This document shows positions 44,772 through 54,425 of a stretch of 64,000 nucleotides of DNA, piece by piece. The stretch spans positions 372,001-436,000 of the forward strand of contig NZ_CP040710.1 of assembly GCF_005943945.1 (NCBI RefSeq), read 5' to 3'. The stretch is from Aggregatimonas sangjinii (GTDB taxonomy: Bacteria; Bacteroidota; Bacteroidia; Flavobacteriales; Flavobacteriaceae). The number at the start of each line of letters is the position of its first letter. The stretch's first letter is position 1. The translations under genes and the position numbers were made by a program. The notes under the pieces were generated by a model. That model made no database searches. It had not been told where the DNA came from and saw only the letters and a program-made list of their open reading frames with translations.

Positions 44772-45482
44772 TTAATAGTCCAATCCTAGATAATCCATTA
44801 CCTCATAATAATTACCGGTGTCTACTCCATCGGATTTCATTTTTTCCAACGATGGCGCATTGTTTTTACCTGAAAGGCTTGAAGGTGCTATGAGTACATA
44901 GCGCACCCGATGATTGGTGGGAGGATTGGGTCGTGCTCCCAAATCGTTTCCTATGGCAAAAGCCACGTATTCACCAACCGACATAGCATCATGTATTTCA
45001 TACGTACTACCGACGCTTACGAAGGGAACAGAGGAGGCCGACGTACTGTTCGACGAAAATTGAACATAGCTCAATAGCGCATAGGAGTTGATGACCTCCT
45101 GCGTTATTCGTGCATCGGGAAGTTCAAAACGCGCTTCATTGTTTCCGTCCCAATTGCTTGGAAAGCTGAGATTGGTCCAGCTAGAGGCAATGACGTTGGC
45201 ATTGCCATCGGCACCATCAGCACCGTTAGCGCCATCGGTCCCATTGGTTCCATCCGCGCCGTCGGCACCTGGAGGTCCGGCCGGGCCTTGCGGCCCTGGA
45301 ACGCCCAAGGCTTCCCCATCTTCCCCAGCTGGCCCTTGTGGCCCTTCCGGTCCTTGAATTCCCTGTTCACCTTGCGGTCCTTGCGGTCCAATCGGGCCTT
45401 CGACTTCATCCTTATCGCAGGAAACAAGCATCATTGCGGTTGCCATAAATACCATTGTAACTAATTTCATTGTCGTTTTCAT
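44772..45482 (-). CDS. collagen-like repeat lipoprotein, probably surface exposed
   Basis: A 236-aa lipoprotein (MVFMATAMMLVSC, Cys22). The residues after Cys read CDKDEVEG, which fits the K-(D/E)-(D/E) lipoprotein export signal described for surface lipoproteins of Capnocytophaga. Residues 29-95 are Gly-x-y triplets (GPIGPQGPQGEQGIQGPEG...; GADGADGTNGTDGANGADG), a collagen-like rod. A C-terminal globular domain of about 140 residues follows, unknown to me. It is preceded by an ECF-like promoter (45517-45547) and is probably part of the local sigma regulon. Confidence 0.85.
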   Translation of the reverse strand: MKTTMKLVTMVFMATAMMLVSCDKDEVEGPIGPQGPQGEQGIQGPEGPQGPAGEDGEALGVPGPQGPAGPPGADGADGTNGTDGANGADGADGNANVIASSWTNLSFPSNWDGNNEARFELPDARITQEVINSYALLSYVQFSSNSTSASSVPFVSVGSTYEIHDAMSVGEYVAFAIGNDLGARPNPPTNHRVRYVLIAPSSLSGKNNAPSLEKMKSDGVDTGNYYEVMDYLGLDY

Positions 45483-45516: not shown

Positions 45517-45547
45517 TCTTAATGGAACTTATTTGGAAGAGGTTAAC
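45517..45547 (-). promoter_or_regulatory. ECF-type promoter of the collagen-like gene
   Basis: Minus strand: GTTAACCTC, 15 bases, ATTAAGA, ending about 35 bp before the ATG. Same layout as upstream of the sigma gene at 48286-48316. Confidence 0.65.
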
Positions 45548-45617: not shown

Positions 45618-47477
45618 TCAATGTTCGAAAGTAATACTGCGTATTTGCGTAAGCGCTGTAGTGTGTCCGAAAGTAATCCTGGAAATCCAAGGCGACCCTT
45701 CTTCCCATAATACCGTTGAAGGTGCCGAATAGTCGTAGGGCGTTGCGGTTCCCGTTGTGCTGCCAAGCACCAAATCACCCGCTGTATAGGCTGTAAGGGT
45801 ATAATCTACAGCAGCACCGTAAAACTCAATGATGACACGCCTTACCGGTTCAGCGAACGTGAACTCCAAGGGCACCCCGTTGCATGAGTTGAGTTGTCCA
45901 TGGCGAGAGGTACTCAAAAAGCTAATTGGAGCACCATAACTTCCGGTCGCCAACATGGCAGGTACGGCATCGGCACAGTACGTGCCGCTGATTTCCGTTC
46001 TAATACTTTCGATTCCCTCCGCGGCTAGCGCTCCTTCGGAAAGCGTCCTCGATGCCCCTACATAATTGCTGAAATCGATAGTAGTCGGGCCATCACAATC
46101 TAAATCGAAAACGGCTCTTTCGGATAGGATTTCTTGGGGAGTGATAACTCGTAACTGCTGCCAGAAATCATCATATCGACTTCCACTTCCACCTAACGTC
46201 CAAGAGGTATTAACGGTTTGGGAACCGGCTTCGGTAAACTCTAGGGTCTCTACAGGAGCGGTAGCACCATCGCTACGCAACCAGGTATACGTGACCGTTG
46301 TAGGGCCGTTCGCTGTAATAATCCCTTCGAATTCGAATCTATGGGGGCATTCGCCGCTAACATCGTCGTCACCCAACACCGTTGCGGATGTGGTAATGGC
46401 TACTTCATCTTCCCCACAATATAAATCGAAGGTAGCTCTTTCTGAAAGCACTTCCTGAGGCGTAATCACCCTTAGTTGTTCCCAATATCCCTCGTAAGAA
46501 TTACCGCTTCCGCCGAGCATCCAATAGGTAGTTACCGTTTGGGAACCGGCCTCGGCAAATTCAAGGGTTTGCTCGGGAGCAGTGGCACCATCGCTTCGTA
46601 GCCAGGTATAGGTAACCGTTGTAGGGCCATCTACGGTAATTACGCCTTCAAAATCGAATCTTTTTGGGCATTCTCCGCTAAAGGTATCATCACCTAGAAC
46701 TGTTGCCGCTGCCGTTACGGTTACTTCGTCTTCCTCACAGTATACATCGAAAGTGGCCCTTTCGGAAAGTACTACCTGAGGAGCGATTACCTTCAATTGT
46801 TTCCAATAGTTCTCATAAGAATTGCCGCTGCCACCAAGCGTCCAGGAGGAGGTTACCGTCTTTGTACCAGCTTCCTCGAATTCAATGGTGTTTTCAGGGC
46901 TTGTAGCACTATCACTCCTCAACCATGTATATACTAAGGTTACCGGTGCGTCAACAGTAATTTCAGCTTCGAAATTGAATTTCTTTGGGCATTCGCCCGT
47001 ATATTCGACTTCCCCTAAAATCGTTGCCATGGCAGAAATATTCACTACATCGTCATCACAATGGAGGTTAAACACAGATTTGTTGGATAACATTTCCTTA
47101 GGTGATATAACCTTAAGCTGTTGCCAGTAGCCCTCATAGGAGTTGCCACTTTCGCCCAATGTCCATGAGGTATTGACCGTTTTTACGCCCGCTTCGTCAA
47201 AGACCAACGTGGTTTCCGGGGCAATAGCACCGTCGCTACGCAACCATGTGTAGGTAACCGTCATGGGGCCATCTGCTTTGATTTCACCCTCGAAATCGAA
47301 CTTTTTTGAGCAAGGACCGGAAAATTCGTCAATTGCGTTTAGCTTCACCAATGTTATCGCAGAAAGGGCTTCCGACTCTTCTTCGATGATGGTGTCTATT
47401 TCTTTGGTACAGGAAGTCAGTGACATGACTAGCATTGCCACTATAAAACAGAATAGATATTTTAAGGTCGTTTTCAT
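45618..47477 (-). CDS. lipoprotein with four 107-aa tandem repeats
   Basis: A 619-aa lipoprotein (MLVMSLTSC, Cys23). Residues about 44-464 are four repeats with an exact 107-residue period, each with two cysteines 84 apart (56/140, 163/247, 270/354, 377/461). The shared core is TYTWLRSDGATAP..TLEF.EAG.QTV..SW.LGGSGNSYE.YW.QL.VI.P...LSERA.FDLYC. A unique C-terminal domain of about 150 residues follows. The cysteine pair suggests a disulfide-closed, Ig-like beta domain outside the cytoplasm. I know no named family. An ECF-like promoter (47505-47534) places it with the sigma regulon; it may be an adhesin or surface rod. Confidence 0.82.
   Translation of the reverse strand: MKTTLKYLFCFIVAMLVMSLTSCTKEIDTIIEEESEALSAITLVKLNAIDEFSGPCSKKFDFEGEIKADGPMTVTYTWLRSDGAIAPETTLVFDEAGVKTVNTSWTLGESGNSYEGYWQQLKVISPKEMLSNKSVFNLHCDDDVVNISAMATILGEVEYTGECPKKFNFEAEITVDAPVTLVYTWLRSDSATSPENTIEFEEAGTKTVTSSWTLGGSGNSYENYWKQLKVIAPQVVLSERATFDVYCEEDEVTVTAAATVLGDDTFSGECPKRFDFEGVITVDGPTTVTYTWLRSDGATAPEQTLEFAEAGSQTVTTYWMLGGSGNSYEGYWEQLRVITPQEVLSERATFDLYCGEDEVAITTSATVLGDDDVSGECPHRFEFEGIITANGPTTVTYTWLRSDGATAPVETLEFTEAGSQTVNTSWTLGGSGSRYDDFWQQLRVITPQEILSERAVFDLDCDGPTTIDFSNYVGASRTLSEGALAAEGIESIRTEISGTYCADAVPAMLATGSYGAPISFLSTSRHGQLNSCNGVPLEFTFAEPVRRVIIEFYGAAVDYTLTAYTAGDLVLGSTTGTATPYDYSAPSTVLWEEGSPWISRITFGHTTALTQIRSITFEH
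46086..47348 (-). repeat. four tandem 321-bp coding repeats
   Basis: DNA for the four 107-codon units of the lipoprotein. Repeats 3 and 4 are closest to each other; the first is most diverged. The uniform period shows whole-unit duplication without indels. Confidence 0.85.
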
Positions 47478-47504: not shown

Positions 47505-47534
47505 CTTTAATGCATCGGTTTGGGGAAGGTTAAC
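47505..47534 (-). promoter_or_regulatory. ECF-type promoter of the 107-aa repeat lipoprotein
   Basis: Minus strand: GTTAACCTT, 14 bases, ATTAAAG, about 28 bp before the ATG. Confidence 0.65.
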
Positions 47535-48285: not shown

Positions 48286-48316
48286 GTTAACCTTATTTAT
48301 ACCCTAGCCATTAAAG
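48286..48316 (+). promoter_or_regulatory. ECF-type autoregulatory promoter of the sigma gene
   Basis: Plus strand: GTTAACCTT (48286-48294), 15 bases, ATTAAAG (48310-48316). The motif matches four others in the cluster. Its 3' end touches the GTG assigned as start of the sigma gene, so either the mRNA is nearly leaderless or the true start lies further in. Confidence 0.65.
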
Positions 48317-48885
48317 TGAAAGAAAAGAAAACGGAGTTTACGCTAGAAGAATTAAAATCGGGTGCTGATTCGGTGCTAAGGCAGGTGTATGAGGAAAATA
48401 GGGACAAGTTCTTGAATTTCGCCCGCCGTTACCATTTGTCGGAAGATGAAAATATAGATATCTATCAAGACGCCTTTATCATTTTTCATGAAAATGTGAT
48501 GAGCGGAAAGGTGAAAAGCTTTACTAGCAGTATCTCGACCTATCTTTTTAGTATTGGTAAATATTTGATTTTCGATCAGATGAAGAAGAACAAAAGAACC
48601 GTAGGAGCTAAATACGACCTTTCAAGGGTCGGCACGGACGACGATTTGGTAGAGACGCTGGAAATAGATGAGCCCAACCTTACTCCGGAACAACGATTGT
48701 TGCAAAAGCATTTTCCTAGTCTTGGAAAGCAATGTCAAGAGCTTTTGACCCTTTTTTATTACCGAGGGTACACGATTCAGGAAATTATGCAGGCCGAGAA
48801 CTACAACAGCGAAAATGTTGTAAAGGCGGCAAAATCGAGGTGTATGAGACAACTTAAAGAACGGATAAAGGAAAACCCCCAATAA
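48316..48885 (+). CDS. ECF-type RNA polymerase sigma factor
   Basis: A 189-aa sigma-70 family protein. Region 2 reads LRQVYEENRDKFLNFARRYH and NIDIYQDAFIIFHENV with YLFSIGKYLIFDQMKK. Region 4 reads LGKQCQELLTLFYYRGYTIQ then EIMQAENYNSENVVKAAKSR, the promoter-binding helix-turn-helix. No region 3 is present. The start is a GTG at 48316, directly in the putative -10 box; an internal GTG at codon 21 is possible but would shave region 2. The next gene starts 1 bp after its stop and looks like an anti-sigma protein. Its promoter motif recurs before four other units nearby. Confidence 0.92.
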   Translation: MKEKKTEFTLEELKSGADSVLRQVYEENRDKFLNFARRYHLSEDENIDIYQDAFIIFHENVMSGKVKSFTSSISTYLFSIGKYLIFDQMKKNKRTVGAKYDLSRVGTDDDLVETLEIDEPNLTPEQRLLQKHFPSLGKQCQELLTLFYYRGYTIQEIMQAENYNSENVVKAAKSRCMRQLKERIKENPQ

Positions 48886-48886
48886 A

Positions 48887-49636
48887 ATGAACAAAGAACA
48901 ACTCTTATATCATTATTTCTCAAACTCGCTTTCTAGCGAGCAGGAAAAGCAGTTGCAGGACCTTTTGGAGACCGATGCGGACTTCAGTGAACAGTTCAGG
49001 TTCGAAAAAGACCTGAAACGGGTGGTACGCGAGAGGGAAAAGGAGAAACTAAAATCAAAGCTAAGTGGTTTTGAGGCGGAAATCGCACAAGAAAAACCGG
49101 TGATACAACTGAAAACTAACCGTAAAAAAAGTGGCTTTAATTGGTCTGTTGCGGCTTCCATCGCGATTTTAGTCGGACTGGGTTGGTTAGGGTATAGCAC
49201 GCTTTCCGGAGCCGATTACCAAGATTTGTATCAGGAGAATTTTGAAGAATACCCGAATACCGTTTTTGCAGTAACACGTGGCGACACCGCCGAATCCATC
49301 GAAAGAGCGGCATTCGCTTCATATGAAACGGGCGATTATAAAACGGCAATAGCAAGTTTCAACAAGATTTCCGCTCCCGATAAAGAAAGTTATCTTGACT
49401 TTTATATCGGTCAATCGCAGTTGGCTCTCGGTGAATTGGCCAATGCCGAAAAATCGTTTCAAAAAGTGATTTCCTCAAATTCCGATTTTATTGCCGAGGC
49501 GCATTGGTATTTGGCTTTGACCGCCATTAAACAAGAAGATAGGATAAAAGCCATCGACTACCTGAATAACCTCATAGCCAATCATGAGTATAACAAGGAT
49601 AAGGCTAGGGCGCTTCTTGAAGAGCTGAAGGAGTAG
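48887..49636 (+). CDS. membrane-anchored TPR protein, putative anti-sigma factor
   Basis: A 249-aa protein. Residues 1-80 are cytoplasmic, helical and charged (LLYHYFSNSLSSEQEKQLQD; LKRVVREREKEKLKSKL), with the 'Y-F-x-x-x-L-S-x-E-E-x-x-x-x-x-x-L-L' opening seen in many Bacteroidota anti-sigma proteins. One membrane helix lies at about 86-104 (WSVAASIAILVGLGWLGY). The outer part holds TPR repeats (residues about 140-245; ASYETGDYKTAIASFNKISA; GQSQLALGELANAEKSFQKV). It sits directly behind the sigma gene, so it probably binds that sigma factor and senses something in the periplasm through the TPRs. Confidence 0.82.
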   Translation: MNKEQLLYHYFSNSLSSEQEKQLQDLLETDADFSEQFRFEKDLKRVVREREKEKLKSKLSGFEAEIAQEKPVIQLKTNRKKSGFNWSVAASIAILVGLGWLGYSTLSGADYQDLYQENFEEYPNTVFAVTRGDTAESIERAAFASYETGDYKTAIASFNKISAPDKESYLDFYIGQSQLALGELANAEKSFQKVISSNSDFIAEAHWYLALTAIKQEDRIKAIDYLNNLIANHEYNKDKARALLEELKE

Positions 49637-49704
49637 GTAACTGCAAGGCTAGGTATGCAATTTCACCATAGAGAAAGTGTTTGGAGATGTGTCATAATAA
49701 AACA

Positions 49705-52470
49705 TCAAGAATTCATTTTTCGATAAAATAAAAGTCCAGCTCCTAAAACAAGTATTGTTCCCAAAGTCATCCAAGGCCATCTCTTATTGGTCCAAGCTGA
49801 TTCGGTAATCGGGCTATTATCCCCAATAACAATGAGTCCTGCCCAGAATGATGGAGACACGGTAGTACCCTTGAATTTGTCGATGTAAGCGATTTTGGCC
49901 TTTCGAAGTGCGGCCGATTTGGTCAATCCTTTTTCGAGACCTTCGTAGAAATCGGTCATTAGATTTTTGCTACTCTTATCGGTAATGGTCCACAAAGAGG
50001 ACACTACGCTTTTTGCGCCCGAATGGAAAAAACCTCGGGCCAGGCTCATAGCACCTTCTCCTTTGCGCAGTTCGCCCACAGAGGTGTTGCAACCGCTCAA
50101 CACCACCATATCGGCTTGATTTTTGGTCGCATAAATTTCATTTAAAAACAGTTTTTGATCACTGAAGGCTATCCAGGGATTATTGCCTGCACCCGCATCG
50201 GCATGGGTCGATAGATGCAGGATTTTAAAATCGCCCATATTTTTCAATAATCGGGATTTGGTCGCATCTTCATTTAAGGCCATTTCTCCAGAATACATTT
50301 CGTGTACCTGATTGACCTCTTCTCCGCTAAAAGCAAGTTTCGGGAGCCCTAGGGTGGTGAAATTGATTGGGGCGAGGCCAAGCAGCTCTTTTTCGGGTTG
50401 GTGTATAATTTCCTTTTTTGCATCCAAATAAGACATGGAATAGGCATACCGGATTTCAACCTCTTCAATCAGATATGTGCTTTGCTCTAGATTTGCGACC
50501 AATGCCTCGAACGGTATCTGCTGCAACAGATAGTCTGCCACAATGGTGAGTTTTTTCCCTTTTATCGTGTTTTGAACCTTTTCTGGAAGTAGGCTACGGT
50601 ATACTTCGTGGGCGGTGTTTTTATAGTTCGATAGTTTCTCCGTGCTTGAACTGACATCGGTGAGCTGGGCATAGAGTTCAAGTAGTTTCTCGTTCAATTC
50701 TTTGGGGTTTTCCAATTTAAAAAAAAAGGTCTGATCGGGACTGCTCATCAGTCCATATCCCTGCTGGTCATTCAGGATGTACTGCAAAACGACCTCCTTC
50801 TCCGAAAGATGGTGTGCCTTAAATTTTTTATAAGGGAGCACATCGACCTTTCTTTTGAGTTTGGCATAATCTGGAAACGCAGTGGTCAATAGGGCGGTAA
50901 ATCGATCATACTCCCTTTTTTGGTCCGCTATGCTCTCTCGTAGTTCTTCCAGAGCTCCATCAGAAGTGGCCGTCGCTATTTGCAATTCGTTTTCCGCCAA
51001 TAAAATAGACCGCTTGAGGTCAAATTCCCGTTTGGCTATCGAGTCGGGTAGTTGGGTAATTTCCTTCGCCATTTCATTGGTGACATCTTCAAGCAGCAGC
51101 AGCGCCTTGTTTCGCTCCATAAAATAATATGCCTGCTGGGGCCGGTCAAGCAAATAGCTGGTTTCGACAGCCTTCATGTATAGCGATGACCCTTTTTCCC
51201 TCCAGAACAATTTGGACTGGTTCTCGGTACTTTCAAATCGGATAATATCAACCAACTTATCCGCTAACGCAAAGGTTTTTAGCGCATGATTTAGGTGTTC
51301 ATTGTTAGTGTCGTATTCGTAATAGCGCAGCCAACCGTTGGCTTTGGTCACCACGTGGCTTAGCAATTGAATTTTATCCGGGGCGAGCTCAAAATCTTGT
51401 TCGGTAATGAGGTCGTCATATGCGATTTTCCGATTTTTATCGGTTGCATAGATTATAGCCTTTTGGTACTGGTATAAGCCCTTTTCAAATTCATTTTGAG
51501 CAAGATAAAGATCACCAAGGTTCTCATATGGCGAACTGTAGTTTTCATCATTTATAATCGCCTTTTCAAGATGAATGAGCGCCTCCTCGTTTCTTTTTAA
51601 TTGCATATTCGAAAAACCGATGCTGTTGAGCACCCTCGCAAGTTCGTCGGGATATAGGTTGAGTGAATCGGCCAAAACGGCTTCATGATGGGCAATCGCT
51701 CGCTCGTATTCCCCGATTTTCAAGAACCTATTGCCCTTAAATTGATCAACACGCCGTTTTTTGAACTGTATTTCTTCTTGTGCAGCACGATCGATCAGGG
51801 AATCGACCTTCTTTAGATCAGCTGCGATTTTGTCATTAAAAAGTTGATTGTCGATTGTTGAATACACTTCCGCCCGTCCGATATAAGCGTCCAATAGGTT
51901 AAAGTTTTTGCTGGTTTTGGAGTTGGGCCCATTATAGAAGGTTATCATGTCGGTGAATTGGCCTATGCCTTTGTAGAAATCTCCCAGTTCAACGTACAGG
52001 GCACCCAATTCCAATTTGGCGTCCTGAATCGCTTCGCTATCCTTGCCATTATTTGCCAAAAACCTGAAGGAGTCCAAGGCTTTGTAATAATCTCCCTTGA
52101 AATAATGAAAAGTACCAAGGTTAAAGGCTGTTTTTTCCAAAGATCCCTTTTCCAAGCTTGGCAGTTCTTTTTTTAGCAAAAGGGCTTTTGTCGTGAAGTC
52201 TATGGCATTTTGAATATCCTTTTCAGCTCCTGTAGTCCACCACTGATCGTAATACCATTTGCTTGCCACATCGTGATAGCAATCGGCCAAAAGGGTGGGT
52301 GACATCGCCTCTTCGTTCGCAAGGAAAAAAGAGTCTATTTTTTGCTGTTTGATTTCGCTGGTGCCGCCCGTAGCTATGATATCTAGAAGGTCTTGATGTT
52401 GCGCCTGGCAAAGGTGCCCGACAAAAAAAAGGAGAAAGCAACTGAATTGCCTAAGCAGCAAATGCTTCAT
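49705..52470 (-). CDS. periplasmic TPR-CHAT caspase-like protease
   Basis: A 921-aa protein with signal peptide MKHLLLRQFSCFLLFFVGHL then CQAQ. TPR repeats fill residues about 60-420 (LARVLNSIGFSNMQLKRNEE; YENLGDLYLAQNEFEKGLYQ). A coiled region follows, then a C-terminal CHAT domain: FKILHLSTHADAGAG (His756) and MVVLSGCNTSVGELRKGEG (Cys794), the caspase-type dyad. A final membrane helix MTLGTILVLGAGLLFYRK anchors it. Both catalytic residues are present. TPR-CHAT proteins are proteases, as in the type III-E CRISPR partner Csx29. The neighbours are a sigma factor and a TPR anti-sigma protein, convergent with it. The ATG at 52470 was chosen over a GTG six codons upstream. Confidence 0.9.
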   Translation of the reverse strand: MKHLLLRQFSCFLLFFVGHLCQAQHQDLLDIIATGGTSEIKQQKIDSFFLANEEAMSPTLLADCYHDVASKWYYDQWWTTGAEKDIQNAIDFTTKALLLKKELPSLEKGSLEKTAFNLGTFHYFKGDYYKALDSFRFLANNGKDSEAIQDAKLELGALYVELGDFYKGIGQFTDMITFYNGPNSKTSKNFNLLDAYIGRAEVYSTIDNQLFNDKIAADLKKVDSLIDRAAQEEIQFKKRRVDQFKGNRFLKIGEYERAIAHHEAVLADSLNLYPDELARVLNSIGFSNMQLKRNEEALIHLEKAIINDENYSSPYENLGDLYLAQNEFEKGLYQYQKAIIYATDKNRKIAYDDLITEQDFELAPDKIQLLSHVVTKANGWLRYYEYDTNNEHLNHALKTFALADKLVDIIRFESTENQSKLFWREKGSSLYMKAVETSYLLDRPQQAYYFMERNKALLLLEDVTNEMAKEITQLPDSIAKREFDLKRSILLAENELQIATATSDGALEELRESIADQKREYDRFTALLTTAFPDYAKLKRKVDVLPYKKFKAHHLSEKEVVLQYILNDQQGYGLMSSPDQTFFFKLENPKELNEKLLELYAQLTDVSSSTEKLSNYKNTAHEVYRSLLPEKVQNTIKGKKLTIVADYLLQQIPFEALVANLEQSTYLIEEVEIRYAYSMSYLDAKKEIIHQPEKELLGLAPINFTTLGLPKLAFSGEEVNQVHEMYSGEMALNEDATKSRLLKNMGDFKILHLSTHADAGAGNNPWIAFSDQKLFLNEIYATKNQADMVVLSGCNTSVGELRKGEGAMSLARGFFHSGAKSVVSSLWTITDKSSKNLMTDFYEGLEKGLTKSAALRKAKIAYIDKFKGTTVSPSFWAGLIVIGDNSPITESAWTNKRWPWMTLGTILVLGAGLLFYRKMNS

Positions 52471-53021: not shown

Positions 53022-54425
53022 TCATTCTCTTAACAGGGCTCTGCTTTCCACTATCTTACCATTAAGTTCCGATGAGGTGGATGCGGATGGAAGACTAAAA
53101 ATAATCTGTTTTAAGGTAGCGGGCGGGAGGTCTGGAGCCTCATCGATAACAACTGCGGCGATCGCAGACATCGCCGCGGCGGCATAAGAGGTGCCATCGA
53201 GCGTTACCTCATCATCCAGTGTTGAATCATCGGGCGTATCCAAGATAATCTTGTAGTCATTAAAAGCCAATGCGATATCTATGCTGGTCGCTCCAAAATT
53301 GGAATCCTCATCCAGCTCTACGGGATCGGTAACGGGCCGTACGCCATCATCAAAGTAACCACCAACGGCAAGAATGTTGGCCGCGTCAAAGAAAGATAAA
53401 AAATCGCGTTCGGAACCTATCTCATTGTCCACACCTTTATTTCCGGCCGACGTAACGACCAAGGTATTTAACTCATTCAACTCATCCAATAGCTGCGCAA
53501 AGAGACTTTTATTTCCGTTTTCGTCTAGCTCAAATAGTGCTTTGGGCATACTCCCACCAAAGCTGGCGTTGACAACACTGATATTACCCCCGTTTTCATT
53601 AATTTCCTTAATGTAGGCAAAAGCACAAAGAACGTCCCAGTAAGATCCCTTCCCTTCTGCATTAAAAACCTTTAAGGGCAGAATCTGATAATTGATGCCA
53701 TCTTCCTCAAGCACATCGGTAATGATTTTAGTGACATAGGTGCCGTGTCCGTTTTGGTCTAAAATATCCTGATTGCCTTCATTGATACGATTTTCGTCCC
53801 CATCGCCTAAATAATTCCAACCAGATTGAGTGCTTAGACAATCACTGAAAGCCCCGCTCGGGAATAAATTTCTTCTAGTGTCGGAACTTATCTCATTGCG
53901 ATTATAATCAATACCCGTATCTATCACGGCAATGTTAACACTGCTATTATCAACGGCAGCAATAAAAGAAGGCTCACCGCCCGCCTGACCCTGAGGGGTG
54001 AAAGGTGCGATTTCCGGTAAAAATATGTCGAAAGACCGATCACCTCTTACTTTTCCGGCCGGATTTCTTCGTGGCAGACCATTAACGACGCCTTCTATAT
54101 CAAGTTCTTCGATACCCGGATCGAATATCCATAAATCCATATCGCCACAATCACATTCCTCGATTTGTACGTCTGGATACTCCATTCGTATTTCCGCTCT
54201 AACATTATCCCTCTCGCTCAAGGTAGAACTGGCATCATAACGTACCACGATTTCATTCGGTGAAATTTCAATTCGTTCTGTTATACTACTGGCGCCCTCG
54301 TCAATTTTAATTTCATTGTAAATGATATTGTCGTCATCATCGTCCCCACCATGGCCATAAGGCCATTTCGAGCAGGAGGCGACGACCAAACATGTAAAAA
54401 ATAATATGGTAATTTTTGTTTTCAT
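53022..54425 (-). CDS. subtilisin-like (S8) serine protease lipoprotein
   Basis: A 467-aa lipoprotein (LFFTCLVVASCSKW, Cys18) with an acidic run GGDDDDD shortly after the lipid site. A propeptide-like region precedes the S8 domain. The catalytic triad is visible: Asp in VNIAVIDTGIDYNR, His in LDQNGHGTYVTKI, Ser in LDGTSYAAAAMSAI, and the oxyanion Asn in VVTSAGNKG. Lipidation and the acidic tether suggest an envelope or surface location. It lies next to the CHAT protease in the same orientation but has its own terminator and no GTTAACCT motif. It could process surface proteins of the cluster. Confidence 0.92.
   Translation of the reverse strand: MKTKITILFFTCLVVASCSKWPYGHGGDDDDDNIIYNEIKIDEGASSITERIEISPNEIVVRYDASSTLSERDNVRAEIRMEYPDVQIEECDCGDMDLWIFDPGIEELDIEGVVNGLPRRNPAGKVRGDRSFDIFLPEIAPFTPQGQAGGEPSFIAAVDNSSVNIAVIDTGIDYNRNEISSDTRRNLFPSGAFSDCLSTQSGWNYLGDGDENRINEGNQDILDQNGHGTYVTKIITDVLEEDGINYQILPLKVFNAEGKGSYWDVLCAFAYIKEINENGGNISVVNASFGGSMPKALFELDENGNKSLFAQLLDELNELNTLVVTSAGNKGVDNEIGSERDFLSFFDAANILAVGGYFDDGVRPVTDPVELDEDSNFGATSIDIALAFNDYKIILDTPDDSTLDDEVTLDGTSYAAAAMSAIAAVVIDEAPDLPPATLKQIIFSLPSASTSSELNGKIVESRALLRE

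Follow-up and report, generated by a model that had tools for sequence, protein, structure and literature searches.

Regulated proteolysis of anti-sigma factors is carried out by DegS and RseP on RseA and by PrsW on RsiW. In Myxococcus xanthus, DdvA, the transmembrane anti-sigma of DdvS (PDB 8rot and 8rw5; the former is presumably this protein, judging from its entry title), holds anti-sigma and CHAT parts in one chain and keeps the His, Cys and Asp residues. Separase has cohesin as its substrate. According to PMC10028731, the Csx29-Csx30 system works by cutting a sigma inhibitor, and among open-licence papers, preprints excluded, this was the only one found to pair a CHAT domain with an anti-sigma. 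PMC11229360 describes CalpL-CalpT-CalpS, in which a protease frees a sigma factor, and SAVED-CHAT, a CHAT protease cascade in type III CRISPR. The present analysis concerns a 64,000-nucleotide stretch of the marine bacterium Aggregatimonas sangjinii (contig NZ_CP040710.1, positions 372,001 to 436,000), referred to as the window, which carries genes for an extracytoplasmic function (ECF) sigma factor, a one-span anti-sigma protein with tetratricopeptide repeats (TPR) and a TPR-CHAT protease. Judging from covariation between the two latter proteins, the CHAT protein most likely cuts the anti-sigma at R131/G132, starting the release of sigma.

The window module and the described systems

The arrangement proposed in the sequence-only reading, an ECF sigma gene with a one-span TPR anti-sigma 1 bp behind it and a convergent exported TPR-CHAT, was borne out in coordinates and domains. 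The sigma gene (48316..48885, + strand) starts with GTG and encodes 189 amino acids (aa). Its product exceeded the cut-offs of a sigma-70 region 2 profile, with 25.7 bits for PF04542 (cut-off 24, E 1e-5), and of an ECF-like one, with 53.4 bits for TIGR02937 (cut-off 42.9), and fell outside the Bacteroidetes subfamily TIGR02985 (49.6 bits, 126.4 required). One base after it begins the anti-sigma gene (48887..49636, + strand), encoding 249 aa with a cytoplasmic part (aa 1-86), a membrane span (about 87-106), a periplasmic linker and a TPR part within aa 136-245. The protein has the marks of a membrane anti-sigma, namely a place directly behind an ECF sigma gene, an N-terminal domain and one span, and it is presumably the anti-sigma that binds the adjacent sigma. 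Anti-sigma profiles matched its family weakly only: 7/16 members with NF047528 (best 3.6e-6) and 6/16 with NF052375 (best 3.2e-5). The window protein itself matched NF052375 only, at an E value of 0.015, far under the cut-off.

The CHAT gene (49705..52470, - strand) is convergent to the anti-sigma gene, with 68 bp separating the stop codons, and encodes 921 aa when read from the ATG at 52470. The protein matched PF12770, of caspase fold, with 178 bits (cut-off 24, E 3.6e-52; aa 625-890 in the numbering from GTG). In ATG numbering, the catalytic residues are His756 (50203..50205, - strand) and Cys794 (50089..50091, - strand). They had been described as intact; their positions are right, and each residue is invariant in the 235 aligned CHAT domains, window included. 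Because the protein has a signal-like N-terminus and a C-terminal span, a helix in the model at aa 897-920 (49711..49782, - strand), its topology is compatible with that of the anti-sigma. The predicted topologies agree, and the opposite orientation in the membrane that the sequence-only reading had named as contrary evidence does not hold.

Fold matches of the CHAT protein include Csx29, separase (separase-securin complexes among them) and DdvA. The TPR-CHAT fold is shared with type III-E Craspase, and the genome yielded no match to RAMP (PF03787, found in 4/14 control genomes) or to Cas1 (PF01867, found in 9/14), CRISPR arrays not having been searched for. The parallel to Craspase signalling without CRISPR that had been suggested is supported. 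Differences are also evident. In contrast to Craspase (Csx29, Csx30, CASP-sigma), the window protease is exported and anchored in the membrane and the inhibitor is a membrane TPR protein; at the aligned S1-type position the TPR-CHAT of 8d9f has Ser, whereas the window CHAT has Asp831. The DdvA plan of a single chain was not found in the window, which has two separate genes, in trans. Separase, which resembles the window CHAT in its fold and whose binder of the P1 Arg is taken as the equivalent of Asp831, is eukaryotic. As in the DegS/RseP and PrsW systems, a first cut outside the membrane would free an ECF sigma; there the first protease belongs to another family, whereas here it would be a CHAT cysteine protease with a pair-specific match between pocket and site. 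CalpL and SAVED-CHAT differ from the window in being activated by cyclic oligoadenylate, as stated in PMC11229360.

Coupling between the CHAT pocket and the anti-sigma linker

The aligned anti-sigmas show a near-invariant R-G/S just beyond the membrane, replaced by M-S/G in colinear operons. The window counterpart is R131/G132 (codons CGT GGC, 49277..49282, + strand), the predicted scissile bond, about 25 aa outside the membrane; over the alignment the distance from span to site has a median of 25 and a 10-90% range of 22-28. Before the CHAT alignment was read, it was predicted that the S1-type residue would change together with the site, with Asp opposite R and a non-acidic residue opposite M, and a common change was indeed seen. 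Glu is also found in L074, L078 and L112, whose anti-sigmas carry K, K and Q. For the 158 anchored CHATs accompanied by an anti-sigma, the residues at CHAT position 831 and anti-sigma position 131 were D/R in 91, E/K in 30, E/M in 18, E/Q in 15, and G/K and L/K in one each; the remaining two are L114, which is cut, and L071, which is misaligned (the aligned residue is Asp, with Arg three residues earlier). After reduction to one pair per anti-sigma and removal of duplicates, L114 and L071, 150 pairs were left: D/R 87, E/K 29, E/M 17, E/Q 15, G/K 1 and L/K 1. Asp831 (49978..49980, - strand), the S1-type residue predicted to bind the P1 Arg, occurs with R131 in 87/87 pairs and never with K, M or Q. 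Position 131 itself is R, K, M or Q in 150/150 (the one misaligned pair excluded), followed by Gly, Ser, Asp, Asn or Ala.

The strength of this coupling was compared with that of all other columns. In a scan of 298 x 238 columns (70,924 pairs) by weighted mutual information with average-product correction, on 151 protein pairs, the four top column pairs joined CHAT positions 831, 792, 718 and 754, each with anti-sigma position 131 (z 10.9, 10.8, 8.7 and 8.6; the next reached 6.7). Comparison scans on 149 triples gave a best z of 7.0 for sigma with anti-sigma, 5.5 for CHAT with sigma, and at most 5.9 for 20 random re-pairings. When residues were coded as binary features, only one of 173,360 pairs reached an absolute phi of 0.99, and this was Asp831/Arg131 (phi 1.000); the best values were 0.944 for sigma with anti-sigma and 0.932 for sigma with CHAT.

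The other three coupled CHAT residues are, in the window, Glu718 (50317..50319), Ser792, two residues before the Cys (50095..50097), and Ser754, two residues before the His (50209..50211), all on the - strand. R131 is accompanied by Glu718 together with Asp831 in 87/87 pairs, and M131 by Leu, Val, Ile or Ala718, Gly754 and Thr792 in 17/17. With Q131, Lys718 is found in 13/15; with K131, Asp792 in 25/31. In the CHAT model Glu718 lies in the helix after strand 694-700 and Asp831 after strand 821-825. The S1 pocket of caspase-1 is formed by Arg179, which follows strand 1, Gln283, two residues before the Cys, and Arg341, which follows strand 5. Judged by the succession of secondary structure elements, together with caspase and separase anatomy, the coupled positions are predicted to line the corresponding pocket.

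Covariation alone shows only contact with the pocket. The linker might therefore occupy the active site of CHAT uncut, holding the protease inactive as a pseudosubstrate in the manner of securin and separase, while CHAT acts on another target, and the separase-securin complexes among the fold matches lend this some weight. Against it, the small residue after the site suits a substrate, and so does the surrounding segment, which is poorly ordered in the read-through model described below (residues 21-27, predicted local distance difference test score < 50). The dyad is invariant as well, and the related Csx29-Csx30 system is known to operate by cutting a sigma inhibitor (PMC10028731). Docking without cleavage is consequently regarded as unlikely. 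The model was obtained by folding the two members of a natural colinear anti-sigma/CHAT pair (L103) as one in-frame read-through chain, with 28 alignment rows, and its confidence was low in the active-site part of CHAT. The sequence-only reading had tentatively placed a CHAT cut in the outer TPR part of the anti-sigma. Direct proteolysis is supported by the covariation; the predicted cut has moved to the juxtamembrane linker.

Distribution and descent of the module

Conservation of the neighbourhood was examined in three samples. From the family, 120 genomes were drawn evenly; 56 had PF12770 matches, at 90 places. All places except the window's own were analysed, giving 89 CHAT open reading frames (L033-L120; two adjacent CHATs share L085), and C-terminal anchoring was called with a hydrophobicity cut of 1.2. 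The locus held an anti-sigma whose site residue is R, K, M or Q for 62/74 anchored CHATs, compared with 2/15 non-anchored ones, so that anchoring accompanies the presence of the anti-sigma. The two exceptions are L038, anchored by eye, and L073, whose CHAT spans are N-terminal and not C-terminal; L073 is a colinear sigma/anti-sigma/CHAT locus with a longer anti-sigma (375 aa). The 12 anchored CHATs without a counted partner include L071 (Arg three residues off), L114 (cut), L093 (unlinked L310) and L033 (ambiguous), and for L081 and L091 an anti-sigma of Arg type lies just beyond the analysed stretch (L326, L327). Of the 345 genomes of the phylum sample, at least 168 had a match; in 60 stretches chosen for score and spread, an anti-sigma stood beside 24/30 anchored and 5/36 free CHATs. 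The clear modules of this sample fall in four families of the class (f1, f4, f5 and f8), and where anchored CHATs of other classes were encountered, no sigma/anti-sigma was recognised in the stretch. In a named sample of 78 loci, the anti-sigma was present for 71/77 anchored CHATs; the proportions of Asp and Glu in this sample are not representative, because three of the five CHATs used as seeds carry Glu.

The conserved neighbourhood of CHAT homologues, proposed as a check, was thus found across the family and phylum samples. Convergent, divergent and colinear operon arrangements all occur, and sigma and anti-sigma are at most 60 bp apart in 152/156 loci measured. A profile of 16 anti-sigmas was also searched against 30 PF12770-containing genomes and 30 lacking this domain. 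The 38 matches above 60 bits were all in CHAT-containing genomes (26/30); a CHAT lay no farther than 10 kb from 35 of them, the three exceptions being in G033:C1, G024:C2 and G045:C14. The 30 genomes without CHAT gave no match above 60 bits; weaker partial matches (E up to 1e-5, maximum 37.3 bits) were obtained in 13/30. The module, most likely one for envelope signalling, occurs in several families of the class. The window genome has three PF12770 places, the window CHAT among them. A second complete convergent sigma/anti-sigma/CHAT module lies near G000:C1:3,875 kb (L001, L048), and the third place is an open frame of 1,790 aa at which no sigma/anti-sigma neighbours were found. At L176, L178 and L085, two or three consecutive CHAT genes stand next to a single sigma/anti-sigma pair.

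The pairs used for covariation are related by descent, and a CHAT-domain tree was therefore built without the pocket columns. Several results weigh against cleavage of the anti-sigma by CHAT. On this tree the Asp/other and Arg/other traits each change just 4 times; there are 4 independent pairs on the best tree and 2 on strongly supported branches, and although all are concordant, the sign test gives p 0.5. The CHAT-domain data did not reject a single origin of all non-Asp forms (p-AU 0.074, approximately unbiased test). The concatenated tree gave only 3 changes per trait, and jointly 3. Met-type CHATs carry Glu, an acidic residue contrary to the predicted non-acidic one. No partner was found for six anchored CHATs of the family (L057, L059, L070, L077, L082 and L087) or for five of other classes (L187, L204, L205, L206 and L208), the surroundings having been read for nine of these eleven, that is, all but L057 and L082. 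Five free phylum CHATs have a weak anti-sigma match nearby, two of them with R in the aligned column; in those five the surroundings of the site differ. A possible mismatch exists in G033, where the L321 anti-sigma has a K near the site and the Asp-type CHAT L033 lies 5 kb off, although their partnership is uncertain. The periplasmic preference of the covarying positions was dropped as evidence, since sigma-anti-sigma pairs show the same.

These trees bear most directly on the possibility that nothing but common ancestry and gene order links CHAT with the anti-sigma and that the covariation is a clade marker, which the 3-4 switches and the unrejected single origin (p 0.074) would favour. Set against this, no other of the 173,360 feature pairs is equally tight, the coupled positions are next to the dyad or come after strand 1, and chemically they suit the residue of the partner. 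The site was moreover lost in two orphans: the Met-related anti-sigmas L319 (G045) and L320 (G033) keep the span and TPR but have lost the PDPGLPTTM-S/G site, with no CHAT in the analysed stretch and no Glu-type CHAT among the PF12770 matches of the genome. A mere clade marker is accordingly judged very improbable. In the concatenated tree the Met clade stands across the root from the Lys and Gln clades (branch support 98-100). In G024, a Met-type anti-sigma (L310) and a Glu-type CHAT (L093) are on different contigs and still match as E/M. With few switches and related pairs, the case for cleavage draws chiefly on the fact that this pair is unique and on its chemistry.

Companion genes and the proposed mechanism

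A fourth recurrent part of the module is a gene for an S8 (subtilase) lipoprotein, located in the window at 53022..54425 (- strand), upstream of CHAT and on the same strand. Its product matched PF00082 with 76.6 bits (cut-off 21.8, E 2.6e-21), and the Asp/His/Ser triad was found in 79/79 sequences of the family. A simple pattern detected a lipobox-like start in 53/79. It is conceivable that this protease cuts the anti-sigma and that CHAT acts on S8 or elsewhere: in 74/78 cases outside the window the S8 gene is located upstream of CHAT in the same orientation, within 400 bp in 71 of them, and the triad is invariant. Yet the S8 family is present in just 75/161 module loci (window counted), and none of its alignment columns tracks the site residue (best 51%), so that this alternative is given very little credence. 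On the same column result, S8 was rejected as a substrate of CHAT.

Repeats within the window yielded the motif GTTAACCT-N14/15-CATTAA, which precedes sigma and two lipoprotein genes there. The candidate sigma-dependent promoters are at 48286..48314 (+ strand) before sigma, in the form GTTAACCT-N15-CATTAA, which would imply autoregulation; at 47507..47534 (- strand) before a repeat lipoprotein gene (45618-47477, - strand); and at 45519..45547 (- strand) before a collagen-like lipoprotein gene (44772-45482, - strand). Including these three sites, which defined the pattern, the motif occurs 5 times in the genome, compared with 0 for the reversed control. A first genome pattern with other spacings was rejected, as its 4 matches equalled the 4 of the reversed control. 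No GGTTAAC was found within 300 bp upstream of the window CHAT, and for the motif found here the earlier statement that the CHAT gene lacks the sigma motif holds. Among 32 convergent Arg-type loci, GGTTAAC or GTTAACC was found within 300 bp upstream of sigma in 12 and of CHAT in 0; a spaced-motif scan of 156 sigma upstream regions gave no clear common consensus. The placement of the motif agrees with a sigma that regulates its own gene and has envelope proteins as targets, and with a protease outside its control.

Further features of these regions were observed. GGTTAAC and its complement (window 48157 and 48292) lie about 130 bp apart upstream of sigma, and L067 and L063 are similar. The repeat lipoprotein gene contains four tandem copies with 321 bp spacing, of about 107 aa each. 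The family of the collagen-like (GPQGPQG) lipoprotein is present in 14 module loci, window counted, and the other 13 are convergent. The two motif copies outside the window (L331, L332) are at about 3.896-3.901 Mb of G000:C1, some 20 kb from the second sigma/anti-sigma/CHAT module; the second of them is just behind an open reading frame with fibre-like repeats and what we take to be an S74-type end.

On the reading that CHAT cuts the anti-sigma, the latter would keep the ECF sigma at the inner membrane through its cytoplasmic domain. TPR-CHAT, exported and tail-anchored in the same membrane, would act as a cysteine protease of separase/Csx29 type, and an envelope signal would activate it, perhaps via its TPR domain or with the help of the S8 lipoprotein protease encoded next to it. 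Activated CHAT would then cut the anti-sigma once in the exposed linker, after Arg131 and before Gly132. This cut may shed the TPR domain and trigger further degradation that frees sigma, and the freed sigma would drive its own gene and the envelope lipoprotein genes by reading the motif.

A broader proposal, which may well prove wrong and is put forward tentatively, is that these modules represent a widespread non-CRISPR class of separase-like, membrane-tethered CHAT proteases that make the first anti-sigma cut. They would use a re-writable Arg/Lys/Gln/Met code between pocket and site, in many cases joined with a lipoprotein subtilase in a cascade of two proteases, and together with the single-chain DdvA they could be a plausible source of the TPR-CHAT/sigma branch of type III-E CRISPR. 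If true, Bacteroidota would gain a proteolytic switch from envelope to transcription built on the caspase/separase fold, and many unexplained anchored CHAT proteins would receive a job. The bond that is cut and the residues of the pocket would be pinpointed, and the protease-sigma branch of Craspase would be set in a wider, CRISPR-independent context.

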